DNA of 64,000 nt from positions 1 to 64,000 of the forward strand of contig NZ_PDWO01000010.1 of the NCBI RefSeq assembly GCF_010211765.1, written 5' to 3'. The stretch is from Pseudoxanthomonas kaohsiungensis. Lineage in GTDB: Bacteria > Pseudomonadota > Gammaproteobacteria > Xanthomonadales > Xanthomonadaceae. The notes under the pieces were generated by a model, which saw only the letters and a program-made list of their open reading frames with translations, did not search any database and was not told where the DNA came from. Below are positions 6,711 through 47,358 of this stretch, in pieces (the stretch's first letter is position 1; each line of letters opens with the position of its first letter). Both the position numbers and the translations under genes were made by a program.

Positions 6711-7754
6711 ATGAGCAGGCTGTTCCGTGACGTCGATGGCGGGTCCTTGTACCCGCGCGGCAGCGTGGTCTGCATCGGCGCCTTCGACGGCCTCCACCTG
6801 GGCCACCGGGCGCTGGTGCGCCACGCGGTGGCGCGTGCGCAGTCGCTGGGCCTGCCGGCGGTGGCGCTGAGCTTCGAGCCGTTGCCGCGCGAGTTCTTCG
6901 CCCGCGACACCCCGCCGCCGCGGCTGACCCTGCCTCGCGACCGGGTCCAGGCGTTGCTCGGCCTGGGCATCGACCGGCTCGGGCTGCTGCGCTTCAACGC
7001 GGCATTGGCGGCGATGCCGGCCGAGGCGTTCGTCCGTCGCGTGCTGGCGGGGCGCCTGGGCGCGCGCGAGGTGTGGATCGGCCCGGAGTTCCGGTTCGGC
7101 AACCGACGCGGAGGCGACCTGGCCTTGCTGCAGGACATGGGCCAGGCGCTGGGCTTCGCCGCGGGCGAGATCGAACCGGTGCACGTGCACGGTGAGCGCG
7201 TGTCGAGCACGCGCATCCGCGAGGCGTTGCGCGCAGGCGATTTCGACAAGGCCGCCGCGCTGCTTGGTCGCCCCTACGCGATCGGCGGCCGGGTGGTGCG
7301 CGGCCGCCAGCTGGGCCGCACGCTGGGCTATCCCACCGCCAACCTGCGCTTTCCCAAGACCCCGGCGTTGTCCGGGATCTACGCGACCTGGGTGCATGGC
7401 GCCGGTCCGCGGCCGTTGCCGTCGGTGTCCAGCTTCGGCACCCGGCCGACGGTGGAGGGTGTCGAGCCGCTGCTGGAGGCCCACCTGTTCGATTTCAGCG
7501 GCGACCTGTACGGGCGCCACCTGCAGGTCGAGTTCGTCGCCAAGCTGCGCGACGAGGAAAAGTTCGCCGACCTGGAGTCGCTGACGGTGCAGATGCACCG
7601 CGATGCGGCGCAGGCGCGCAGCCTCCTTGCCGGCACCGCTGCTCCTTTCCCGTCGGATGTACAGGCGGGTGCGGATCCCGAGACCGCCAAACCCTTCCCC
7701 GACGCCACGCACGACGACGTGGCTTTCCCAACCAACGCCGCCGCGCGACGGTAG
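6711..7754 (+). CDS. ribF: Bifunctional riboflavin kinase / FAD synthetase
   Basis: 347 residues. The N-terminal nucleotidyltransferase (FAD synthetase) half has [10 protein letters not shown] and SSTRIREAL, and the C-terminal riboflavin kinase half (from about 185) has [11 protein letters not shown] and FGTRPTV. It converts riboflavin to FMN and then FAD. The last 35 or so residues, after [14 protein letters not shown], are Pro/Ala/Asp-rich and go beyond the usual ~310-residue family end, so they look like a disordered tail. It precedes ileS with a 5-bp gap, a linkage seen in most gammaproteobacteria. Confidence 0.95.
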
Positions 7755-28341: not shown

Positions 28342-28746
28342 ATGGAAAAGACCTACCACGGCAGCTGCCACTGCGGAGCGATCCGCTACCGGGCCACGCT
28401 CGACCTGGCCGCCGGCACCGGCAAGTGCAACTGCACCTACTGCAGCAAGATCCGCAACTGGAGCGCGCGGGCGACCGACTTCGAACTGCTCGATGGCGAA
28501 GCGCTGCTCGGCGACTACGGCAAGGACTGGGGCGAGGGCAACATCCACCATCGCTTCTGCAGCCGCTGCGGGGTCAACCTCTACGGCCACGGCTACATCG
28601 CCGAAGCCGGCGGCGGGTTCGTCTCGGTGCTGGTCAACACGCTCGACGATGCCAGCATCGACGAACTGGTGTCGGGCCCGGTCCGCCATGCCGATGGCCG
28701 CCACGACAACTGGATGAATCCGCCAGCGGACACGCGCGCGATGTGA
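28342..28746 (+). CDS. GFA family zinc protein (glutathione-dependent formaldehyde-activating-like)
   Basis: 134 residues with the CENP-V/GFA fold. Zinc ligand motifs are CHCG (near residue 9), CNCTYC (about 30-35) and CSRCG (about 73-77). Members are often called S-(hydroxymethyl)glutathione synthases, but the enzyme activity is disputed for most. Position directly after a GST supports a glutathione-linked role. GGAG precedes the ATG. Confidence 0.88.
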   Translation: MEKTYHGSCHCGAIRYRATLDLAAGTGKCNCTYCSKIRNWSARATDFELLDGEALLGDYGKDWGEGNIHHRFCSRCGVNLYGHGYIAEAGGGFVSVLVNTLDDASIDELVSGPVRHADGRHDNWMNPPADTRAM

Positions 28747-28791
28747 TCGCGCGGTGGCACGGGGATGAAAGGCGTCGGTCAGCTGCGAGCC

Positions 28792-28883
28792 GCGATGGCG
28801 GTAGGGCGCGCGGAAAGCGTCGGCTCTGGTGGAAGGCGCGATGGCGGCAGGGCGTATGGAAAGCGTCGGCTCCGGTGGGAGCC
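28792..28883 (+). repeat. 46-bp tandem repeat, two copies
   Basis: Units at 28792-28837 and 28838-28883 agree at 39 of 46 positions. Each contains GGAAAGCGTCGGCT, the same motif that flanks the structured elements here and at 38.8 and 39.2 kb. A weaker third copy of the motif lies just upstream (near 28767). Confidence 0.75.
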
Positions 28884-29022
28884 GCGGCGGGCCGGGTGGG
28901 TCGTGGCCGCTCGGGCGCACATCCATGTGCGCACTCGCTACCGCGGACATCCATGTCCGCTGCCACGACCCACCCGACCCGCCACGTCTCCGCGCGGCTC
29001 GAGGGTCGTCGCTTCTTCGGGA
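28858..29022 (+). repeat. Structured intergenic element, copy A
   Basis: The flank AGCGTCGGCTCCGG (from 28862) leads to a core with perfect 15-bp outer arms (28893-28907 and 28962-28976; GGGTGGGTCGTGGC and its complement). The 54 bases inside form two hairpins, GCGCACATCCATGTGCGC (28915-28932) and GCGGACATCCATGTCCGC (28943-28960). A tail near 29003-29022 (GGGTCGTCGCTTCTTCGGGA) matches the tails of the other copies. I do not recognise the family. It may be a non-autonomous mobile element or a structured RNA. Confidence 0.75.
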
Positions 29023-29073
29023 TGAGAGCCGTCGGCTCTGGCAAGCGCCACGACGGCGGTAGCCCGTGCTGTC

Positions 29074-29181
29074 GTAGAGCGGGGCTTGCCCCGCTGCTTT
29101 GACGCGACGTCGCTCCACGGAAGTGCGCAGCCGGGCAAACCGGCTCTATCCGAGGAAGCAGCCGGGCAAGCCCGGCTCTAC
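29074..29181. repeat. Cluster of three GTAG REP palindromes
   Basis: One forward copy (29074-29096) and two inverted copies (29128-29149, worn, ending CTAT; and 29159-29181, ending CTCTAC). The cluster is 48 bp from the mutS stop and between convergent genes, so it may end both transcripts. Confidence 0.8.
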
Positions 29182-29228
29182 GGGGCAGGGCATTTGCGGT
29201 CGCTACGCCACGCCGTGCTCCGGCATCG

Positions 29229-31874
29229 TTACAGCAGCGACTTCAGCCGGTACAGCGCTTCCAATGCCTGCTTCGGCGTCAGCTCGTCGGGGTCCAGCGC
29301 GGCCAGCGCTTCCTGCGCCGCCGAAGGCGCAGCGGCGAACAGGCCGAACTGCTGCGGCGCGTCCAGCGCCTGCGGCGCCATTTCCGAGGCATGGCTTTCG
29401 CGGCCACGCTGCTCCAGCTCGGCCAGCCGGCGCCGCGCCTGCTGCAGCGTGGCCTTCGGCAGGCCGGCCAGCGCCGCCACCTGCAGGCCGAAGCTGCGGT
29501 CGGCCGCGCCGTCCTTCACTGCGTGCATGAACACGAGCGCATCGCCATGTTCGACGGCATCGAGGTGCACGTTGGCGATGCCGCTGTCCGGCGTCGCCAG
29601 CGCGGTGAGTTCGAAGTAGTGGGTCGCGAACAGGGTCCAGCAGCGGTTGACCGCGGCCAGGTGGCGCGCCACCGCATCGGCCAGGGCCAGGCCGTCGTAG
29701 GTCGAGGTGCCGCGGCCGATCTCGTCCATCAGCACCAGCGACTGGCTCGTCGCGTGATGCAGGATGTAGCTGGTCTCGGCCATCTCGACCATGAAGGTCG
29801 ACTGGCCGCGGGCGAGGTCGTCGCCCGCGCCGATCCGGGTCAGGATCCGGTCGATCGGGCCGATCTGCGCGCGCGACGCGGGCACGAAGCTGCCGATGTG
29901 GGCGAGCAGCACGATCAGCGCGTTCTGGCGCATGTACGTGCTCTTGCCGCCCATGTTCGGGCCGGTGATCACCAGCATCCGCCGCGGCGGCAGTTCGGGG
30001 TTGTCCACGCTTTCGGCGTGCAGGATGAGATCGTTCGGCTCGAACGGCTCGTCGCGTACCGCCTCGACCACCGGATGGCGGCCGCGCTCGATCCGCAGGC
30101 AGGGCGCCTCGACCAGTTCCGGGCGCGACCAGTCCAGCGCCTGCGCGCGCTCGGCGAAGCCGGCCAGCACGTCCAGCTCGCTGAGTGCGGCGGCGCAGCG
30201 CTTGAGCGGCTCGAGCACGCCGTTGAGCGAATCGAGCAGCGCCTCGTACAGGAACTTCTCGCGCGACAGCGAACGGTCGCGCGCCGAGAGTACCTTGTCC
30301 TCGAACGCCTTCAGTTCCTCGGTGATGTAGCGCTCGGCGCCGGTCAGGGTCTGGCGACGGGTGTAGTGCACCGGCGCCTTGTCGGCCTGGCCTTTGCTGA
30401 TCTCGATGTAGTAACCGTGGACGCGGTTGTAGCCGACCTTGAGGGTCGCGATCCCGCTGCTCTCGCGTTCGCGCGCCTCCAGGTCGACCAGGAACTGGTC
30501 GGCGTGGGTGGACAGCCGGCGCAGTTCGTCGAGCTCGGCGTCATGGCCTTCGGCGATGACGCCGCCGTCGACCAGTTTCAACGGCGGCTGCGGCGCGATC
30601 GCCGAAGCCAGCAGGTGCGCGGTCTCGTCGTGGCGGCCCATCTCGTCGGCCAGCGCCTGCAGCCGCGGCGAATCCAGCGGCGCCAGCGCCTCGCGCAGCG
30701 CCGGCAGCATCGCCAGGCCGTCGCGCAGGGTGGACAGGTCGCGCGGCCGCGCCGATCGCAGGGCGACGCGGGTGAGGATGCGTTCGATGTCGCCGAGGCC
30801 GCGGAAGCTTTCGCGCAGGTCGCGGTCGGCGCCACGTTCGACGAGCGTCGCCACCGCATGGTGGCGCCCGTCCAGGACCGCGCGATCGCGCAGCGGCCGG
30901 TGCAGCCAGCGCCGCAGCAGGCGCCCGCCCATTGGCGTGATCGTCGAATCGAGCACGCCGAGCAGGGTGTGGCGGGTGTCGCCGTCGACCCGGCTGTCCA
31001 GTTCCAGGTGGCGGCGGGTGGCGGCATTCATCGCGATCGCGTCGCCCGCGGTCTCCACCGAGATCGAGGTCAGGTGCGGCAGCTGCTGCTTCTGGGTCTC
31101 CTCGACATAGCCGAGCAAAGCGCCGGCGGCGGCCACGGCCAGCGACTTGTCCTCGATGCCGAAGCCGGTGAGGTCGTGCAGGCCGAAGAAGCGCAGCAGC
31201 TGGCGCCGGCCGCTGTCGGGGTCGAACAGCCAGGGCGGACGGCGGCGCAGCGCGCCGGCGCTCATCGGCGGCAGGCCTTCCTCGTCGGGGACCAGCAGCT
31301 CGGCCGGCTCCAGCCGCGCCAGTTCGGCCAGCAACTGGTCCTCGCCGTCGACCTGGTTGACCAGGAAGCGGCCGCCGGCCAGGTCGGCCCAGGCCAGGCC
31401 GTAGCCGCTCTTTCCTCGCGATACCGCCATCAGCAGGGTGTCGCGGCGTTCGTCCAGCAGCGCCTCGTCGGTGACCGTGCCGGGCGTGACGATCCGCACC
31501 ACCTTGCGTTCGACCAGGCCCTTGGCCAGCGCCGGGTCGCCGATCTGTTCGCAGATGGCCACCGATTCGCCCAGCGCGACCAGGCGCGCCAGGTAGCCCT
31601 CGTAGGCATGCACCGGCACGCCGGCCATCGGGATCGGCGCACCGCCCGAACTGCCGCGCTGGGTCAGGGTGATGTCGAGCAGGCGCGCGGCCTTGCGCGC
31701 GTCGTCGTAGAACAGCTCGTAGAAATCGCCCATGCGGAAGAACAGCAGCAGGTCCGGATACTCGGACTTGGCCGCGAAGAACTGCTTCATCAGAGGCGTG
31801 TGTTCGGGCGCGCCCGGCGGTTTCCGCGCCCCTTGTTCCTTTTCAACGACTTGCGGCTGTCTTGGGTCTTGCAT
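29229..31874 (-). CDS. mutS: DNA mismatch repair protein MutS
   Basis: 881 residues. The mismatch-reading Phe-x-Glu lies at 51-53 ([11 protein letters not shown]). Connector, lever and clamp regions follow, then the ATPase with [10 protein letters not shown], Walker [17 protein letters not shown] and [10 protein letters not shown]. The extreme C-terminus ([20 protein letters not shown]) is the tetramer-forming helix-loop-helix. MutS finds mispairs and recruits MutL. The ATG at 31874 fits the family; upstream frame is Arg-rich. It is monocistronic, ending at the REP cluster. Confidence 0.98.
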
Positions 31875-32196
31875 TACGGGCTCGAAGTGGGCGTGAGCGA
31901 TCTGGAGGCGATCTCGACGGTCGGAAGATCGACCCTCGCTGGCCGGCGCAGGTCGCGCGTGGCGAGGTCGAACGCCAAGGGTGGAAGTATCGCCGACGCT
32001 GGCCGGCTGCGTGCATGCGCAGCGCACGCCGGCCAGGCCACCGGAGCGGCGGCATGGCCGGTCGACCCGATCCCTGCGGCAAGCGGCGCCCGCCAGACGC
32101 CGCCCTTGCCCGGCGCTGCCCGGCACGCATCGACCGCCTGCCGGCACGAGGGCGTGGACCCACGCGCCGGCAGGGCAGGCGCTGCCCGTCCGGGCG
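31875..32196. other. Gap between mutS start and terC 3' end, with terC stem-loop
   Basis: This 322-bp stretch has no gene. It must carry the mutS promoter, which I cannot place with confidence. At 32137-32174 (minus strand, 23 nt after the terC stop) CCTGCCGGC and GCCGGCAGG enclose a second hairpin GCGTGG/CCACGC. This is a likely terC terminator, though without a U-run. Confidence 0.5.
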
Positions 32197-33156
32197 TCAC
32201 CCGTCCGCGGCGCGCCGGGCCGGGCGGGCCAGGCTCAAGGCGATGGTCGTCCCCAGGATCAGCGCCACCACGCCGAGCGACCAGAGCACGGGAATCTTGT
32301 AGACGTCCACCACCAGCATCTTGGCGCCGATGAAGCCCAGCACGACCGCCAGCCCGTACGGCAGCAGGTGGAAGCGATCGGCCATGCCGGCCAGCAGGAA
32401 GAACATCGCGCGCAGGCCCAGCACCGCGAACACGTTCGACGTCAGCACGATGAACGGGTCGTAGGTGATCGCGAAGATCGCCGGGATGCTGTCCACCGCG
32501 AAGATCACGTCGGTGATGCCGATCATCACCAGCACGATGAACAAGGGAGTGAACTTGCGCCGGCGGCCGCTGCCCAGCCACAGCGCGCCGCCGTGGTAGC
32601 GGCGCACGAACGGCACGTGCGCGGTCAGCCAGCGCAGCACCGGGTTGTTCTCCAGGCTCGGTTCCTTGCCGGCGGCGAACCACATCTTCACCCCGGTCAG
32701 CAGCAGGAACGCGCCGAACACGTAGAGCATCCAGTGGAACTTCGCCAGCAGCGCCGCGCCGGCGAAGATCAGGATCGCGCGCAGCACGATCGCCAGCAGG
32801 ATGCCGATCACGAGCACGCGCTGGCGCTGCTCCTCCGGCACCGCGAAATAGGTGAACAGCATCAGGAACACGAAGATGTTGTCGACCGCCAGCGACTTCT
32901 CGACCAGGTAGCCGGTCAGGAACTCCAGGCCGACGCGGTTGGCCTGGGCCAGCCCGGCGGTCTCGTGGACGTACCACCACAGTCCGCCATTGAAGGCCAG
33001 CGCCAGCGCCACCCAGCCCAGGCTCCACCACATCGCCTCCTTGAACGTCACCTTGTGTGCGCCGCCGTGGCGCATCAGCACCAGGTCGACCATCAGGGCG
33101 ACCACCACCAGGCCGCCGAAGCTGGCCCACAACCAGGGATTGCCAATCGTTTCCAT
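32197..33156 (-). CDS. alx: TerC/Alx-family membrane protein, probable manganese exporter
   Basis: 319 residues with about nine membrane segments. The TerC signature acidic motifs are [13 protein letters not shown] and [19 protein letters not shown]. Alx and MntP-like TerC proteins export Mn(II) in E. coli and other bacteria, sometimes for metalating secreted enzymes. The 5' leader (33236-33350) looks like the manganese-sensing yybP-ykoY riboswitch, which strongly supports manganese transport over tellurite resistance. Confidence 0.9.
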
Positions 33157-33235
33157 CGAGATTCCCGCGCATGAAGTGGAGGACGGCCGCGGGCGCGGAC
33201 ATCTCGGGAACCGTGGGAACGGGGATCCGGGGACA

Positions 33236-33350
33236 TGCCTTCGCCGTCGCGGCGAAGGTCTCGCTCACAGCCCGTCGGGCTGCCGTGGGACCGGAGCACG
33301 CAGGCTCGAAATGACGGTCGACACGTCGGGAGCTACTCCCCTTCGGCAAC
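33236..33350 (-). ncRNA. yybP-ykoY (Mn2+) riboswitch in the terC/alx leader
   Basis: On the minus strand the two conserved metal-binding loop segments are present in order and at the usual distance: GGGGAGTAGC (33332-33341) and GAGACCTTCGCC (33251-33262). The latter continues into the stem CCTTCGCC/GGCGAAGG (33238-33258). This class senses Mn(II) and typically precedes alx, mntP and P-type ATPases, as here. The switch ends about 80 bp before the terC ATG. Identification is from remembered consensus; a covariance-model search was not possible. Confidence 0.85.
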
Positions 33351-33518
33351 GATTGTTCATCGCCGGCGCGGTCCGGTCAACCGGGGCGATGCCGGTGGTT
33401 CACGGGCCTGGCCGCGCTGCCGGCAGCTCGGGCTGCCGCGCAGCCCGTGACCGGCGGCCTCGATCGGCAGGCCGGATAGGCGATAGCATCGGGACCCCGC
33501 ATATCCGCAGGAAGTCCC

Positions 33519-34730
33519 ATGCCCCATCGCCTCTCCGTCTGCCTGGCCGTGCTGTTGGCCACGGGAAACCTGTTCGCCGCCGAAGCTCGCACCGATCCGC
33601 GCCAGCTCGCCCGCGAGGCCCTGATCGTCGACACCCACATCGATGCGCCGGGTGAACTGATGGATGGCTGGCGGGACCTGGGCGCGCTCACCCCGGACCG
33701 CGAGTTCGACTACCCGCGGGCGCGCGAAGGCGGGCTGGACGTGGCCTTCATGTCGATCTACACCTCGCCCGGGCAGGACCGGGCCGGCACCGCCCGCGAG
33801 ATCGCGCACAAGCAGATCGACGCGGTGGAGGCGATGGTCGGCCGCCATCCGGACAGGTTCGCGCTGCTGGCCTCGCCCGGCGACGTCGGCCGCCTGCGGG
33901 AGGGTGGCCGGGTGCTGCTGGCGCTGGGCATGGAGAACGGCGCGCCGGTGGGCGACGACCTGGCCGAACTGGAGCGCTTCCACGCGCGCGGGGTGCGCTA
34001 CATCACCCTGGCCCACAGCGAGAGCAACCGGATCAGCGATTCGTCCTACGGCCGGCAGCGCCAGTGGCAGGGGCTGAGCCCGTTCGGCCGGCAGGTGGTC
34101 GCGGAGATGAACCGGCTCGGGATCATGGTCGACGTCTCGCACCTCTCCGACGACGCGGTGCGCCAGGCGGTCGCGCTCAGCCGGGTGCCGGTGATCGCCA
34201 GCCATTCCGGCTTTCGCCACTTCACCCCCGGGTTCGAGCGCAACCTGAGCGACGAACTGGCCAAGGCCATCGCCGCCCGCGGCGGCGTGGTCCAGGTCAC
34301 CTTCGGCAGCGCGTTCGTCAATCCGCAGATGGCCGCCGACACCCAGGCCTATTTCGTCGCAGCCGCCGCGCTGGAGCAGCGCAATGCCGCCGCGCGCGCG
34401 GCCGGCAGGCCGGAAGAAGACAAGGCCGCGTTCGAGGACGAATGGGAACGCACCCATCCCCCGCGCCCGACGGCGATCGACGCGGTGGCCGACCAGATCG
34501 ACTACGGGGTCAAGCTGCTGGGCATCGACCACGTCGGCCTGGGCTCGGACTTCGACGGCGTCTCGGGCAACCTGCCCGAAGGCCTGCGCAACGTCGCCGA
34601 CTACCCCAACCTCGTCGCCGCGCTGCAGGCGCGCGGCTACTCGGACGAGGACCTGGGCAAGATCCTGGGTGGCAACCTGCTGCGGGTCTGGTCCGCGGTG
34701 GAAGCGGGCAGTGCGCGTCCGCGGGATTGA
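33519..34730 (+). CDS. Membrane dipeptidase (peptidase family M19), secreted
   Basis: 403 residues with a signal peptide (cleavage near FAAEA). Metal ligands of the renal-dipeptidase TIM barrel are visible: DTHID (His-x-Asp), the bridging Glu in GMENG, and His in DVSHLSD and IASHSG. The C-terminal GSDFDGV carries the catalytic Asp region. It hydrolyses dipeptides in the periplasm, some members also D-amino-acid dipeptides. It is close to a CDF zinc exporter but with a 78-bp gap, so joint transcription is uncertain. Confidence 0.93.
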   Translation: MPHRLSVCLAVLLATGNLFAAEARTDPRQLAREALIVDTHIDAPGELMDGWRDLGALTPDREFDYPRAREGGLDVAFMSIYTSPGQDRAGTAREIAHKQIDAVEAMVGRHPDRFALLASPGDVGRLREGGRVLLALGMENGAPVGDDLAELERFHARGVRYITLAHSESNRISDSSYGRQRQWQGLSPFGRQVVAEMNRLGIMVDVSHLSDDAVRQAVALSRVPVIASHSGFRHFTPGFERNLSDELAKAIAARGGVVQVTFGSAFVNPQMAADTQAYFVAAAALEQRNAAARAAGRPEEDKAAFEDEWERTHPPRPTAIDAVADQIDYGVKLLGIDHVGLGSDFDGVSGNLPEGLRNVADYPNLVAALQARGYSDEDLGKILGGNLLRVWSAVEAGSARPRD

Positions 34731-34808
34731 TCGCCGGCATGGCGGCCGCCGGTCGCATGCCCCGGCGGTGTAATAGTCTCCGGCGGGGCGGGCCGCAATA
34801 GTGTCGGC

Positions 34809-35858
34809 ATGACGCACGAGCACGACGCCCACCCCGCAACGCCGCCCGCGCGAGCCGGCCACCACAGCGGCCATGCCCATGGCAACGGCCATGGTGGCCA
34901 CACCCATCCCGCCGAGTGCGGACCCACGCACTCACATGGCCACGGCCACGACCACGGCCACGGCGGGCACAGCCACGTGCCCACGGAGATCCGCTTCGAG
35001 CGACCGCTGTGGTGGGCGCTGGGGCTGACGGCCACGGTCCTGCTGGTGGAGATCGCCGGCGCCTGGCTGACCAACAGTCTGGCCCTGCTTTCCGACGCGG
35101 CGCACATGGCCACCGACACCCTGGCGCTGGCCATCGCCCTGGTCGCGGTGCGCCTCGCGCGGCGCCCGCCGGACGCGCGGCGTACCTACGGCTATGCGCG
35201 TTTCGAAGCACTGGGCGCGCTGGCCAACGGCATGCTGCTGTTCGCCCTGGCCGGCTACATCCTCTGGGAGGCGTGGCAGCGCTTCCGGGTGCCGTTGCCG
35301 GTGGCGAGCCTGGGCATGCTGGTGGTGGCGGTGGTCGGCCTGGCCTGCAACCTGGTGGCGATGCGCCTGCTGCATGCCGGCAGCGGCCAGAGCCTGAACC
35401 TCAAGGGCGCCTACCTGGAAGTGTGGAGCGACATGCTCGGCTCGTTGGCCGTGGTCATCGCCGCGCTGGTGATCCGCTTCACCGGCTGGCTGTGGGTGGA
35501 CCCGCTGCTGGCCGTGCTGATCGGCCTGTGGGTGCTGCCGCGGACCTGGGTACTGGTGCGCGAGGCGCTCAACGTGCTGATGGAAGGGGTGCCGCATGGC
35601 GTGGACCTGGCCCGCCTGCGCGCCGATCTCGGCGCGCACCCGCAGGTGGCCGGCATCCACGACCTGCACGTCTGGGCGCTGGCCTCGCGCACCCCGGCCA
35701 TGACCGCGCACGTGGTGGTCGCGGACGGGAGCGACCCGGCCGTCGTGAGGCAGGAACTGGCGGGCCTGCTGGCCCGGCATGGGGTCGCGCACGTGACCCT
35801 GCAGATGGAACGGCCCGGGGAAGCCGCTTGCGCCGGGGTGCGCTGCGGCCACCCCTGA
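34809..35858 (+). CDS. Cation diffusion facilitator, zinc/cobalt/cadmium exporter (CzcD/ZitB type)
   Basis: 349 residues. A strikingly His-rich N-terminus (residues 1-57, 17 His interleaved with Gly) precedes six membrane segments. The transport-site motif SDAAHMATD in helix 2 and YLEVWSDMLGS in helix 5 match the H/D sites of zinc exporters. The cytoplasmic C-terminal domain (HPQVAGIHDLHVWAL) binds further zinc. It exports divalent metal by proton antiport. The His tract fits ZnT or ZitB-like proteins. No metalloregulator is adjacent. Confidence 0.92.
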   Translation: MTHEHDAHPATPPARAGHHSGHAHGNGHGGHTHPAECGPTHSHGHGHDHGHGGHSHVPTEIRFERPLWWALGLTATVLLVEIAGAWLTNSLALLSDAAHMATDTLALAIALVAVRLARRPPDARRTYGYARFEALGALANGMLLFALAGYILWEAWQRFRVPLPVASLGMLVVAVVGLACNLVAMRLLHAGSGQSLNLKGAYLEVWSDMLGSLAVVIAALVIRFTGWLWVDPLLAVLIGLWVLPRTWVLVREALNVLMEGVPHGVDLARLRADLGAHPQVAGIHDLHVWALASRTPAMTAHVVVADGSDPAVVRQELAGLLARHGVAHVTLQMERPGEAACAGVRCGHP

Positions 35859-36000
35859 GCGTCGCAGGCTCCATCCCGAAAAGGGCATCGCCGTATCGTC
35901 GCAGCGCAAAATGCGGTATTTGTAAAGCGGGTTTAACGTCCGTGACGTGGATACCGGTCCGAATGGACGCCGGGCCGCCGCCTGGGAAGGGCGCCTGCAG

Positions 36001-36024
36001 CATCGACATCGACATCGACATCGA
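36001..36024 (+). repeat. Four tandem CATCGA hexamers upstream of the TonB receptor
   Basis: CATCGA is repeated four times without change, starting 61 bp and ending 38 bp before the receptor start. Copy number could vary by slippage and alter promoter or leader spacing. Length variation is inferred, not shown. Confidence 0.7.
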
Positions 36025-36061
36025 CGACACATCGCCATCACACCACCCTGGGGAGGGAACC

Positions 36062-38608
36062 ATGGCCTGCGCAACCCTGAAACACACCGGACTTTCGATC
36101 GCGGTGCTCGCCGCGCTGGCGGTCGTTCCCGCCGCGCACGCACAACAGGCGGCAGCCACGCCGACGGCGGAGGACGAGGAACCGGTCACGCTCTCGGCGC
36201 TCACCGTCACCGCGCAGAAGCGCGAGCAGGCGCTGCAGGAAGTGCCGATCACGGTCAACGTGCTCAGCGAGCAGCTGCTGCAGGACACCGGCGTGCGCGA
36301 CATCAAGGACATGCAGGTGCTGGTGCCGGGCCTGACCGTGACCAGCACGCAGAGCGCTGCGCAGACCGTGGCCCGCATCCGCGGCATCGGCACGGTCGGC
36401 GACAACGCCGGCCTGGAGTCGTCGGTGGGCATCGTCATCGACGGCGTCTACCGGGCGCGCAACAGCGTCGGCTTCACCGACCTGGGCGAGCTGGAGCGGA
36501 TCGAAGTGCTCAAGGGTCCGCAGGGCACGGTGTTCGGCAAGAACACCTCCGCCGGCGTGATCAGCGTGGTCACCCGCCGCCCGAGCTACACCCAGAGCGC
36601 CGAGGGCGAGCTCACCGTCGGCAACTACGGCGCGGTGGGCGTCTCCGGCGCGTACAACGACGCGCTCGGCGAGAACAGCGCGTTCCGCATCTATGCGGCC
36701 CAGCGCACCCGCGACGGCGTCGATGACGTGCGCGTCGCCAACGGCCCGCGCCGGGAGACGGACGACGGCGACCAGAACATGCATACGCTGCGCGGCCAGC
36801 TGCTTTGGGAGCCGGCCGATACCGTGGAGGTGAACTTCGCCGCCGACTACACCAGCCGCGAGGAGAACTGCTGCGTCACCGTGACCACCGTGCGCGGCCC
36901 CACCGCGGCGATCCTCAATGCCCTGACCCCGGGCGGCGAAGCGGTGATCCCGGTGGCCGATCCCGACCGCCGCCTGGCCTACAGCAACCGCAGCACCGAA
37001 CAGGACATCAAGGACAAGGGCTTCCAGGCGGAAGTGAACTGGACCACGCCGTGGGCCAACGACGCGGTGCTGACGTCGATCACCGGCTGGCGCGAGTGGC
37101 AGGCGATCAACGGCCTGGACTTCGACTACAGCGCCGCCGACGTGCTGTACCGCGCGCCGGACGAGGACGAGTCGCTGACCAAGTTCGAGACCTTCAGCCA
37201 GGAATTCCGCCTGACCGGTTCGAGCGAGACGATCGACTGGATGGTCGGCCTGTTCTACTCGAACGAGGACCTGGACCGCAACGAGACCTACCGCTACGGC
37301 GCCGCCTACGAGCCGTACCTGTCGACCGCGCTGCTGGGCCAGATCAACCCGGCGCTGGCCGCGCGCCCCGATGCGCCGCTGTTCCTGTCGCAGGCCACCG
37401 GCCGGCCGTTCGGCACGCTGTTCCCGGGCCTGGCCACGCTCGACACCTACAAGCAGAACGCCGAAAGCACCGCGATCTTCACCAACAACACCTGGCACGC
37501 CACCGACGCGTTCGACGTCACCGTCGGCCTGCGCTACACCAGCGAGAAGAAGACGCTGGAGTCGGACTACACCAACCCCAACGGCAGCCAGGCCTGCGCC
37601 TCGTATTTCCTGCCCAACGGCCAGGTCAACCCGGCCGCGCTGCAGCGCATCGGCGCGGCCCTGGTCTCGCGCGGCGTGCCGGCCGCGGCGGTGCCCACGA
37701 TCGCCCCGCAGGTGATCGGCTTCACCTGCCTGCCGTGGGCGAACGTGGCCCACAACGGCCGCTCCACCGAGCAGGAACGCGACGAGAAGGAATGGTCCGG
37801 CACGCTCAAGCTGTCCTACAACTGGACCGACGACGTGATGACCTACGCCTCGTACGCGCGCGGCTACAAGGCCGGCGGCTTCAACCTCGACCGCGTACAG
37901 TCGTCCAACGGCCTTTCCAGCGGCACCCAGGGCATCATCCCGGTGGACGACACCTCGTTCCCGGGCGAGTTCGTCGACAGCTACGAGCTGGGCACCAAGA
38001 CCACCTGGGCCGACGGCAACCTGCTGCTGAACGCGGCGCTGTTCTACCAGGAATACACCGACTTCCAGCTCAACAGCTTCCTGGGCACCAGCTTCGTGGT
38101 GCGCTCGATCCCGGAGGTCACCTCGCAGGGCGTGGACGCCGAGCTGCTGTGGAATACCCGCGTCGACGGCCTCTCGCTGCAGGCCGGCCTGGTTTACGCC
38201 GACACCAAGTACGGCGACGACCCGCTGCCGGACGCCGGCCTGGTGCTGCTGCCGGGCAGCCAGATGAGCTTCGCGCCGGAGTGGTCGGGCAACGTCAACA
38301 TGACCTACGAGTGGGACATCGGCGCCAGCCTGGTGGGCCGGTTCAACATCGGCGCCAAGTACATGTCCGAGTACAACACCGGCTCGGACCTGGATCCGGA
38401 GAAGCTGCAGGACGCCTACACCCTGCTCAACGCGCGCGTGGTGCTGGGCGACCAGGGCGGGCGCTGGACGGTCGAGCTGTGGGGCCAGAACCTCACCGAC
38501 GAGACCTACAAGCAGGTCGGCATCGACGCGCCGATCCAGACCGGTTCGTGGAACGCCTTCCTCGGCTCGCCGCGGCTGTACGGCGTGACCCTGCGCGTGC
38601 GCTACTGA
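36062..38608 (+). CDS. TonB-dependent outer-membrane receptor
   Basis: 848 residues. A signal peptide (cleaved after AAHAQ) is followed by the TonB-box region LSALTVTAQKREQALQEVPITV, the plug domain (about 50-160; ERIEVLKGPQGTVFGKNTSAGVISVVTRRP) and a 22-strand barrel ending in the aromatic terminus LRVRY. It imports a large substrate using TonB/ExbBD energy. The sequence style (QKREQALQEVPI, FGKNTSAGVISV) is that of the sphingomonad-type receptors for sugars, vitamins or aromatic compounds. Substrate is unknown; no transporter or regulator gene is adjacent. Confidence 0.93.
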   Translation: MACATLKHTGLSIAVLAALAVVPAAHAQQAAATPTAEDEEPVTLSALTVTAQKREQALQEVPITVNVLSEQLLQDTGVRDIKDMQVLVPGLTVTSTQSAAQTVARIRGIGTVGDNAGLESSVGIVIDGVYRARNSVGFTDLGELERIEVLKGPQGTVFGKNTSAGVISVVTRRPSYTQSAEGELTVGNYGAVGVSGAYNDALGENSAFRIYAAQRTRDGVDDVRVANGPRRETDDGDQNMHTLRGQLLWEPADTVEVNFAADYTSREENCCVTVTTVRGPTAAILNALTPGGEAVIPVADPDRRLAYSNRSTEQDIKDKGFQAEVNWTTPWANDAVLTSITGWREWQAINGLDFDYSAADVLYRAPDEDESLTKFETFSQEFRLTGSSETIDWMVGLFYSNEDLDRNETYRYGAAYEPYLSTALLGQINPALAARPDAPLFLSQATGRPFGTLFPGLATLDTYKQNAESTAIFTNNTWHATDAFDVTVGLRYTSEKKTLESDYTNPNGSQACASYFLPNGQVNPAALQRIGAALVSRGVPAAAVPTIAPQVIGFTCLPWANVAHNGRSTEQERDEKEWSGTLKLSYNWTDDVMTYASYARGYKAGGFNLDRVQSSNGLSSGTQGIIPVDDTSFPGEFVDSYELGTKTTWADGNLLLNAALFYQEYTDFQLNSFLGTSFVVRSIPEVTSQGVDAELLWNTRVDGLSLQAGLVYADTKYGDDPLPDAGLVLLPGSQMSFAPEWSGNVNMTYEWDIGASLVGRFNIGAKYMSEYNTGSDLDPEKLQDAYTLLNARVVLGDQGGRWTVELWGQNLTDETYKQVGIDAPIQTGSWNAFLGSPRLYGVTLRVRY

Positions 38609-38628
38609 GCGCAGGCGGGGAAGGCAAG

Positions 38629-38656
38629 AAGGGGCCGCCATTGGCGGCCCCTTTTC
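38629..38656 (+). terminator. Terminator after the TonB receptor
   Basis: AAGGGGCCGCC and GGCGGCCCCTT form an 11-bp stem with an ATT loop, followed by TTCTTT. It lies 20 bp after the stop codon. Confidence 0.85.
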
Positions 38657-38788
38657 TTTGTGGGTGCTTGTCCTGCTTGCCGACCCGGTGCGTTGCAAGG
38701 TGGCCCGCAGCAGTGCCAGGCCGGATCAGAAGTGCACAGTGTTTCGCGGGAGCATCGGAGATTGAACCGGTTCTCTTCGGGAGTATCC

Positions 38789-38958
38789 AAGAGCGTCGGC
38801 TCCGGACGGGGCCGCCGTCCTGCCGCCATGGGGGTCGTCGCTCGCGCCGGCGTCCCTGCCTCAGCTCGCGACCGCGGCACATCCCTGTGCCGCTCGACCC
38901 CCATGGCGACAGAACGGCGTCCTTTCGGCGCGTCACGGGCGTGGCTTCGATCATTGCA
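38789..38958 (+). repeat. Structured intergenic element, copy B1
   Basis: The flank AGCGTCGGCTCCGG, then GGGGCCGCCGT, leads to a core with perfect 14-bp outer arms (38824-38837 and 38895-38908; CGCCATGGGGGTCG and its complement). Inside, GCGGCACATCCCTGTGCCGC (38874-38893) forms the second hairpin; the first is eroded. The tail has ACGGCGTCCT and GTGGCTTCGATCATTG, shared with copy B2. The arms differ completely from copy A yet pair perfectly. Confidence 0.75.
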
Positions 38959-39048
38959 ACGCTTCGAGCGATCAGGTTTGGCGCGAAGAATGAGGTAAAC
39001 GGCAAGGGGCAAAAGCGGCACGCCCTGTCCTTGTCCGAAGACCCGCCA

Positions 39049-39212
39049 TCAATCGAAGCCACGACCCCGAAGATCCCCGAGGACGCCGTGTCCTGGGGAG
39101 AGGGCCCAAGTGGCACATGGATGTGCCACGACCCGAGTAAAGACAGGATGTCGTCCCGAGGGATGGGCCCTCTCCCCAGGGCACGGCGGCCCCTTCCGAA
39201 GCCGACGCTTCG
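39049..39212 (-). repeat. Structured intergenic element, copy B2 (inverted)
   Basis: Read on the minus strand it has AGCGTCGGCTTCGG and GGGGCCGCCGT, then perfect 17-bp outer arms (39092-39108 CCTGGGGAGAGGGCCCA and 39164-39180). Inside is the hairpin GTGGCACATGGATGTGCCAC (39110-39129) plus a short one at 39142-39152. The tail ACGGCGTCCT and GTGGCTTCGATTGATG matches B1. Core length is 89 bp against 84 and 85 for the other copies. Confidence 0.75.
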
Positions 39213-39300
39213 ACCCATCAGGTCCGAAGCCGGCGCTTCAACCCGCCAGCTCCGACTGCGGCGCTTCAGCCAGCCGACTCAAGGCCGACGCTTCGCCGCG
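39193..39300 (-). repeat. Array of short GAAGCGTCGGC-type motifs
   Basis: On the plus strand the motif appears as GAAGCCGACGCTTC (39199-39212), GAAGCCGGCGCTTC (39226-39239), a worn GACTGCGGCGCTTC (39255-39268) and GGCCGACGCTTCG (39283-39295). The copies are about 27-30 bp apart. The first two are partly palindromic. The first belongs to element B2; the rest extend the array towards pncC. Confidence 0.55.
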
Positions 39301-39385
39301 CCATCGCCGACCGCCGCCGCACCGGCAGACACGCGGCGGCGTTTGGGCTAAAAGGTGGGGCATTCCCCCTGCGGTACCCCGGACA

Positions 39386-39883
39386 ATGCCGATCCCTTCC
39401 GATGCGCAGCTGCGCGAACAGGCCGATGCCCTCGGCGAGCGCCTGCGCGCCACCCGCGACCACCTGGTCACCGCCGAAAGCTGCACCGGCGGCTGGATCG
39501 CCAAGAGCCTGACCGACATCGCCGGATCCTCGGACTGGTTCGACTGCGGCATGGTCGTCTACAGCTACGAAGCCAAGCAGGGCCTGCTCGGCGTGCGACC
39601 GCAGACCCTGGAAGAGCACGGCGCGGTCAGCCGCGAAACCGCGATCGAGATGGTCTCCGGCGCGCTGGTCCACTCCGGCGCCAGCGTGGCGGTGGCGGTG
39701 ACCGGCATCGCCGGGCCCGGTGGCGGCAGTCCCGACAAGCCGGTGGGCACGGTGTGGATCGCCTGGAAGCGCCGCGGCGGGTACGCGCGCGCGCAGGTGT
39801 TCCATTTCGACGGCGACCGCGAGGCGGTGCGGCGGCAGACCGTGGGCCAGGCGCTGGCCGGGATCGCGGAGCTGCTGCCGTGA
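39386..39883 (+). CDS. pncC: Nicotinamide-nucleotide amidase (CinA C-terminal family)
   Basis: 165 residues. The CinA C-terminal domain has LVTAESCTGGWIAKSLTDIAGSSDWFDCGMVVYS, GAVSRETAIEMVSGAL and VAVTGIAGPGGGSPDKPVGTVWIA. It converts NMN to NaMN in the pyridine-nucleotide salvage cycle, removing the NMN made by DNA ligase. Being near recA (cinA-recA linkage) is conserved in many bacteria. The ATG at 39386 gives the family length; the frame upstream runs through the repeat array. Confidence 0.92.
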   Translation: MPIPSDAQLREQADALGERLRATRDHLVTAESCTGGWIAKSLTDIAGSSDWFDCGMVVYSYEAKQGLLGVRPQTLEEHGAVSRETAIEMVSGALVHSGASVAVAVTGIAGPGGGSPDKPVGTVWIAWKRRGGYARAQVFHFDGDREAVRRQTVGQALAGIAELLP

Positions 39884-43532: not shown

Positions 43533-43643
43533 AACGGGTAACCGTTCCCCGCCGGAGTGCTGTCAGTGGCGCGATGGCGGGGAGCGGTCTTTGAAAGCCA
43601 GGAGGGCAGGCGCCATGGATGGCGCATATTTCCCGGGCGAACA

Positions 43644-47151: not shown

Positions 47152-47358
47152 ATGCTGATTCTGACCCGCCGCGTAGGCGAAACCCTGATGATCGGTGATT
47201 CGATCACCGTCACCGTGCTCGGGGTCAAGGGCAACCAGGTGCGCATCGGCATCACCGCGCCGAAGGACGTGTCGGTGCACCGGGAGGAAATTTACCAGCG
47301 GATCCAGCGGGGCGAAGCTCCCGGAAACGCAGGCGGCGAGGGCGATCCGGCCGGATGA
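47152..47358 (+). CDS. csrA: Carbon storage regulator CsrA
   Basis: 68 residues, the standard start [16 protein letters not shown] and [21 protein letters not shown]. The dimer binds GGA motifs in mRNA leaders and controls motility, biofilm and virulence functions in xanthomonads. The C-terminal tail is short and Gly-rich. GGAGAAAG sits upstream of the ATG. It follows alaS as in E. coli and precedes tRNA-Ser. Confidence 0.98.

Follow-up and report, generated by a model that had tools for sequence, protein, structure and literature searches.

A probably mobile, high-copy two-hairpin RNA element with predicted RsmA/CsrA sites in Pseudoxanthomonas kaohsiungensis

A family of intergenic repeats in Pseudoxanthomonas kaohsiungensis is probably a non-autonomous mobile element that spreads bivalent RsmA-binding RNAs, which would act as decoys or as sites in 3′-untranslated regions (3′-UTRs). 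Three copies lie in the window analyzed here, a stretch of 64,000 nucleotides (contig NZ_PDWO01000010.1, positions 1 to 64,000, assembly GCF_010211765.1), at the places given in a preliminary description (Table 1). That description had suggested a mobile element, a structured RNA, or a DNA cruciform bound by a protein; the first two suggestions hold together, whereas the third is disfavored by the strand asymmetry of the mismatches.

The RNA is encoded on the strand opposite to the one used in the preliminary description. This functional strand (F strand) is the minus strand for copies 1 and 2 and the plus strand for copy 3. Read along it, the ~130-nt RNA follows a leader (CGAAGCCACGACC) and takes the order conserved foot GGACGCCG, variable outer arm, hairpin H2 (e.g. 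GUGGCACAUGGAUGUGCCAC), hairpin H1 (e.g. GACAGGAUGUC on a longer basal stem), complementary arm, foot CGGCGGCC, and end CCGAAGCCGACGCU. The outer stem of 24-25 bp is nearly free in sequence and encloses the two adjacent hairpins. Its arms had been described as 15, 14, and 17 bp long and as perfectly complementary in each copy, both of which need correction, since the stem is longer and imperfect pairs occur in some copies. The conserved tail of ~28 nt adjoins each core in the window, and the shared 5′ flank of the preliminary description in fact belongs to the mobile unit, as its outer end. The loop of H2 consists of the four bases NGGA and that of H1 of NGGA or a GGA triloop, with a GGA-to-GGA spacing of 26-30 nt (28 nt in 52/80 copies). 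In the basal H1 stem, CGAG..CGAG, which gives tandem G·A when paired, is found in 36/82 copies (17/32 in the alignment described below) and standard pairs in 25/82, the remainder showing neither pattern.

The family was delimited with R1, a covariance model built from 32 aligned copies (of 36 candidates, four were set aside: two near-duplicates, a truncated row, and an unrelated hairpin). Searched against the 3.76-Mb draft genome, R1 lists 84 matches, of which two antisense echoes (33-35 bits) were excluded. The remaining 82 copies score 83-142 bits, include only three in the window, and may be a lower bound, as 150 of 8911 first-look candidates were scored; the claim of a repeat family is thus borne out with at least 82 members. 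The hairpin sequence ACATCC(A/C)TGT, pointed out earlier, occurs four times in the window against 0.07 expected from dinucleotide shuffles, and 87 times genome-wide against two for a reversed control pattern. Every window copy, on either strand, outfolds all 200 dinucleotide shuffles. The proposed selection on pairing is confirmed by a structure-blind alignment of the 32 copies, where both-sided changes affect 38/48 pairs (334 cells, compared with 90 on average after shuffling) and the covariation score is 0.604 against 0.175 after shuffling and at most 0.114 with the partners slid.

The strand under selection is revealed by the imperfect pairs. A pair of complementary arms reads the same from either strand, whereas a G·T mismatch on one strand is an A·C mismatch on the other. 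Mismatches were counted in a gapped arm alignment that scores G·T and A·C alike. The F-strand outer arms of the 82 copies contain 118 G·T, 2 A·C, and 96 other mismatches, those of 54 non-redundant copies 75 G·T and 2 A·C, and those of 112 elements of other genera 182 G·T, 5 A·C, and 54 others. The last set comprises 108 of 126 matches, with overlapping-locus duplicates and weak or antisense matches left out, plus four from another search, and the 60 other-genera regions used are a subset of the places among the R1 matches listed. Ten partner shuffles between copies under the same gapped alignment yielded 643 G·T and 337 A·C, and the structure-blind MAFFT alignment (32 copies, 20 stem columns) gave 41 and 0 against column-shuffled means of 75 and 42. 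The asymmetry is a well-supported signature of RNA that tolerates G·U: since the imperfect stem pairs are G·U on the F strand, it is the F-strand RNA that is under selection. Strand-biased mutation through replication or transcription is a poor alternative, because the bias holds for F copies on each contig strand and in all four gene contexts, and because divergent pairs place F on both strands of one locus. A sense 3′-UTR element or terminator on the strand of the preliminary description suited the gene orientation (60/82 copies) and was abandoned for the wobble asymmetry. Strong inverted repeats that fold on either strand would also suit a protein-bound DNA cruciform without an RNA role, yet mismatches as lopsided as 118 G·T to 2 A·C would not arise in a double-stranded cruciform, which makes this explanation highly improbable.

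While the stems change, the loops are kept. H2 reads CANGGANG in 81/82 copies, H1 reads CA(N)GGANG in 81/82, and both motifs occur in 80/82; these counts were taken from the 82 model matches, as the 32 aligned copies had been chosen by a loop-containing pattern. H2 takes the form CATGGATG in 47/82 copies and another CANGGANG form in 34/82, and H1 lacks the optional N in 50/82 and has it in 31/82. The variation is confined to the N positions, with T, G, A, or C before GGA and mostly T or C after it. Both motifs recur in 103 of the 112 elements of other genera (L299 1656, a plain long hairpin without GGA loops, was scored as a miss), and in members from other families of the order a pair of GGA hairpins sits on a stem whose sequence is unrelated. 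The consensus for CsrA from systematic evolution of ligands by exponential enrichment (SELEX) is RUACARGGAUGU, the RsmE core is CANGGANG, and the CsrB repeat is CAGGANG; we take the two loop motifs of the element to be the CsrA/RsmA site. The F-strand RNA is accordingly predicted from its sequence as a likely ligand of RsmA/CsrA, and the spacing of 26-30 nt is suited to the two binding faces of one dimer, to which the two hairpins would jointly present their GGA. A csrA/rsmA gene, encoding the proposed partner protein, is located in the window (Table 1).

The element is mobile as a composite. Among 33 neighboring pairs no more than 1 kb apart, 31 are divergent on the F strand, two are tandem, and none is convergent. 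The spacers mostly differ among pairs, and four composites, including the one at 38792-39209, are 83-95% identical with the spacer included. In all six pairwise alignments of these four, the left edge of homology lies no more than 8 bp from the left end, and the outside genes differ; the right edge lies at the unit end in three alignments and 23-62 bp further in the other three, where the extensions resemble additional end repeats. The terminal inverted repeat AGCGTCGGC / GCCGACGCT is short and degenerate in many copies, and no target-site duplication was seen by eye in the four composites. At the cinA locus, R1 matches 3/17 genomes of the genus (the own genome included; one cut by a contig end), and the closest genome tested, whose CinA is 97% identical, has no match there. 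At the mutS locus, a full match occurs in 1/14 loci, the own one, a second match (L438, 19.5 bits) being negligible; by eye, several congeners have the same mutS neighbor without the element and others a different neighbor. The number of R1 matches per genome within the genus ranges from 0 to at least 56, which is the number scored. That the unit is mobile is well supported; it is probably non-autonomous and comparable to a miniature inverted-repeat transposable element (MITE). What is new is an RNA carried by such a MITE-like unit, usually as a divergent inverted pair, and absent from the equivalent loci in most of the congeners compared.

Several side observations concern these loci and ends. 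Upstream of cinA in L180 lies a different long structured inverted repeat (GAATGCCCCTGGAGGCGAA...TTCGCCTCCAGGGGCATTC), with a similar one in L185, both being congeners without the element. The outer end of the element recurs in tandem or degenerate arrays adjoining copies (window 39209-39300; L010 1501-1600 with a 37-bp period; G000 C55:6929-7093), as if insertions were piling up on existing ends. In one other genus of the family (g17), direct tandem copy pairs ~250-460 bp apart are found as well: G337 (L258, L259), G182 (L296), G220 (L283, L284), G379 (L294), and G236 (L254, L255).

The source of the transposition activity was sought at the three Y1_Tnp genes of the genome, the one transposase family searched. 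Neither an exact GCGTCGGCT/AGCCGACGC end nor an R1 match occurs in their loci, and several GTAG-type repeats surround two of them. A system of repetitive extragenic palindromes (REPs) with their associated tyrosine transposase (RAYT) was rejected for the wrong tag, GTAG being absent from the element ends, and for the lack of association at the Y1_Tnp loci. Autonomous copies were sought only among divergent neighbors up to 1 kb apart in the own genome, and there no pair has halves more than 500 bp apart. A mobile element could also be recognized as folded single-stranded DNA, following the logic of HUH transposases or attC sites, in which case the hairpins would serve transposition and any RNA would be incidental. 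The mobility, the hairpin-prone ends, the Y1 transposase genes, and the fact that no promoter or terminator was found all agree with this explanation, and single-stranded DNA, too, tolerates G·T somewhat better than A·C. A ratio of G·T to A·C of ~60:1, however, exceeds the expectation for DNA, the loops fit the site of an RNA-binding protein down to its variable positions, each composite bears one F copy per DNA strand, and the Y1_Tnp loci have no exact element end or R1 match; the explanation is therefore considered quite unlikely.

The copies are intergenic. Genes were predicted from codon usage, with 11 open frames chosen in the window as the training set. By this prediction, 0/82 copies overlap a gene by more than 40 bp; the flanking genes are convergent for 39 copies, co-directional for 39, and divergent for 4. 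A position-wise composition of 54 non-redundant copies displays no fixed AT-rich -10 upstream and no T-run downstream. A free-standing small RNA (sRNA) gene was rejected because this signal is missing, and production of the RNA by read-through transcription is inferred from the absence of a fixed promoter-like or terminator-like pattern beside it. Because the halves of a pair are inverted, a transcript entering from either side would read the far half in the functional direction and bear one correctly oriented RNA. Read-through transcripts could thereby expose GGA sites that bind RsmA and function as decoys, titrating the protein, or as 3′-UTR sites. The intergenic placement and the long, GC-rich, sequence-free stem would also suit an RNA with another job, for instance one of those proposed for REPs: protection of mRNA 3′ ends, processing by RNase III, or attenuation of transcripts. 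The GGA loops would then be bound by something else. A generic hairpin, though, needs no near-invariant GGA in two loops while its stems change, and the two-hairpin geometry is retained in most of the other-genera members looked at, so that this role appears unlikely. A farther-reaching version of the RsmA proposal is offered tentatively, and its chances are rated well below even: a transposable element would spread together with a decoy for a global regulator, with two RsmA/CsrA sites per RNA copy (~160 in the genome) that work independently of orientation through the inverted pair, and differing copy numbers among sister species would reset the strength of Csr/Rsm.

A number of observations weigh against the proposal of mobile, RsmA-binding RNAs. 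An ungapped mismatch count gave 99 G·T, 47 A·C, and 293 others, probably due to misaligned arms, and the conclusions rest on the gapped and MAFFT counts. In 60/82 copies the gene on the 3′ side of the RNA points against it, so that the strand of the preliminary description is the sense strand of this gene's 3′ end. The missing -10 and T-run likewise provide no signal for transcription of the F strand, and by eye a terminator-like hairpin with a T-run stands between a TonB-receptor-like gene and the window pair. As the search model includes the GGA loops, their conservation in other genera is partly due to selection of the matches, and distant matches without one or both motifs exist (9/112, and also L113 1149 and H1 of L114). 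The Rfam family TwoAYGGAY (RF01731) has no match in the window at its gathering score, none at E 5 or better in 28500-39500, and none in the own genome at E 0.001. In a study on X. campestris RsmU, this RNA was still bound by RsmA in vitro when all four GGA were altered, for which reason GGA alone is not decisive; the complex with the altered RNA migrated faster, possibly because it contained fewer RsmA according to the authors, and the effects of overexpression persisted (PMC7694677).

The preliminary description did not recognize the family, and a lax Rfam search of 28500-39500 returned only chance-like matches for the element. Its architecture, however, is that of TwoAYGGAY (clan CL00106, which also holds rsmX), with a long outer stem around two adjacent GGA-loop hairpins. 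The tandem G·A in the stem is shared as well (here CGAG..CGAG); for TwoAYGGAY, a published motif analysis cites tandem GAs and predicts CsrA binding (PMC4333381). Differences lie in the scores of the window copies, which are below the Rfam threshold, in H1, which is without the N in 50/82 copies, and in the high copy number and mostly mobile, divergent arrangement of the element. The element is the same kind of RNA as TwoAYGGAY, and the window copies are not filed under RF01731 because they do not reach the score that defines this family. No mention of multi-copy or mobile forms was found in the available parts of the TwoAYGGAY literature, nor did the portions of the literature searched (including PMC2864571, PMC4333381, PMC11701678, PMC4383904, PMC2817692, PMC3733652, and PMC7694677) describe a CsrA-binding element that is mobile or high-copy. 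The interest lies in the mobile, high-copy form of an RNA of the TwoAYGGAY/CsrA-binding kind.

Relatives extend through the Xanthomonadales. R1 matches 64/397 genomes of the order at E 0.0001, in 24/95 genera sampled, and, at E 0.001, 23 of the 60 genomes in an initial set of relatives. RF01731 matches 26/298 genomes of the order at E 0.001, 13 of them above its cut-off. A lax Rfam search places RF01731 at five distant loci with 34-41 bits, below the gathering score of 43; in four of these the alignment covers all 168 positions. Some RF01731 matches adjoin opposite-strand R1 matches as the partner half (G006 near 818.9 kb, G229 near 85.7 kb). The exact pattern of two CCATGGATGG hairpins occurs at 80 or more loci in many Gammaproteobacteria (Luteimonas, Stenotrophomonas, Lysobacter, Marinobacter, Halomonas, and others), with few outside. 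Among the 80 loci listed, R1 matches 23 at E 0.01 and exceeds 100 bits only in two Pseudoxanthomonas records (L379, L384). When 23 of the 80 were folded, several (Stenotrophomonas, Marinobacter, Halomonas, Oceanimonas, and Pantoea among them) formed a stem with two hairpins and others did not.

Two further repeat types carry GGA hairpins. A sister element type, GGGACC..CATGGATG..GAGCC..GGA loop..TTCACGGCG..GTCCC (L258 2643-2768, L263 2282-2405, L287 2522-2649, L312 ~444-477, L320 ~7643-7675), is the partner half in some other genera and is present in Stenotrophomonas and Marinobacter records too. The own genome harbors a second repeat of ~55 nt with two adjacent GGA/TCC-loop hairpins (CCCGCACATGGATGTGCGGG, TGCGAGGGACTCGCA) at L172 2671, L173 2942, L174 2966, L176 3039, L177 3011, L178 3066, and L144 1153; on the opposite strand, inspection by eye shows some copies followed by AGGAA, which resembles a Shine-Dalgarno sequence, and then by a start codon, in one case probably that of murG.

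Repeated GGA-loop hairpins proposed to sequester RsmA are also the hallmark that the element, by prediction, shares with CsrB, CsrC, RsmX, RsmY, RsmZ, and X. campestris RsmU. The classical sequestering RNAs stem from one locus each, whereas the element is dispersed and has two sites in each copy, and the 54 copies compared revealed no promoter belonging to it. RsmU likewise comes from one locus and is processed from a 3′-UTR; the same source states that BLAST searches of sequenced Xanthomonas genomes yield no significant homolog of the classical RNAs and that several Xanthomonas require RsmA for virulence (PMC7694677). The element resembles REPs, their bacterial interspersed mosaic elements (BIMEs), and CGTC-tagged REPs in being a dispersed intergenic palindrome in inverted pairs with patchy occurrence between species; as in CGTC REPs, the outer end AGCGTCGGC has CGTC beside the palindrome and recurs in tandem, and CGTC REPs too are without a known transposase (PMC2817692, PMC3733652). 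In contrast to REP/BIME, the halves measure ~165 bp with a stem and two hairpins instead of 20-40 bp, lack a GTAG tag, and are under strand-specific RNA constraint.

Bacterial MITEs (Correia, RUP, ERIC, etc.) are short non-coding mobile units with terminal inverted repeats. The element conforms to this type, with the differences that no target-site duplication was seen in the four composites, that no cognate transposase was found at the Y1_Tnp loci, and that a conserved RNA lies inside. It supplies testable RsmA-sequestering candidates in many genera of the order. If the proposal is correct, the element would be an unusual mobile element in carrying an RNA module that binds a protein and targets a global regulator, and the variation in copy number between sister species would offer a natural experiment. 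Expression data are not needed for the G·U/A·C asymmetry test to indicate the strand of a structured repeat, and the test could be extended to other repeat families.

Table 1. Features of the element and its proposed partner gene in the window. Fold z values are given for the F strand, followed by the opposite strand.
Feature	Position	Strand	Evidence
Copy 1, structured RNA core	28862-28991	-	R1 105 bits; fold -96 kcal/mol, z -8.55/-7.06
Copy 1, outer stem, 3′ arm	28884-28907	-	partner of 28962-28985 in fold
Copy 1, outer stem, 5′ arm	28962-28985	-	fold
Copy 1, hairpin H2, ACAUGGAUGU at tip	28943-28960	-	motif scan and fold
Copy 1, hairpin H1, ACAUGGAUGU at tip	28915-28932	-	motif scan and fold
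Copy 1, leader (tail of the preliminary description), family consensus CGAAGCCACGACC	28992-29019	-	
Copy 2, structured RNA core, left half of divergent pair	38792-38924	-	R1 115 bits; fold z -7.06/-5.17
Copy 2, hairpin H2, ACAGGGAUGU at tip	38874-38893	-	motif scan and fold
Copy 2, hairpin H1, loop CAGGGACG	38849-38860	-	sequence
Spacer separating the pair halves, two leaders face to face	38925-39078	no strand	
Copy 3, structured RNA core, right half of divergent pair	39079-39209	+	R1 131.9 bits; fold z -7.50/-6.94
Copy 3, outer stem, 5′ arm	39084-39108	+	partner of 39164-39188 in fold
Copy 3, outer stem, 3′ arm	39164-39188	+	fold
Copy 3, hairpin H2, ACAUGGAUGU at tip	39110-39129	+	motif scan and fold
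Copy 3, hairpin H1, GGA triloop (GACAGGAUGUC)	39142-39152	+	sequence and fold
Composite mobile unit, 418 bp, ends AGCGTCGGC ... GCCGACGCT	38792-39209	no strand	83-95% identity to three other composites, flanks otherwise different
csrA/rsmA gene, proposed partner protein	47152-47307	+	PF02599, E 2.2e-26; best of three CsrA-family matches in genome

Two other features were noted. GTAG-type REP repeats (GTAGAGC.., GTAGGAGC..) lie at 29075-29180 of the window and in L140 and L144, and the Xanthomonas sRNA sX7 is matched by Rfam (RF02226, 57.8 bits, cut-off 55) at 43536-43628 of the window, between recA-like and recX-like frames.

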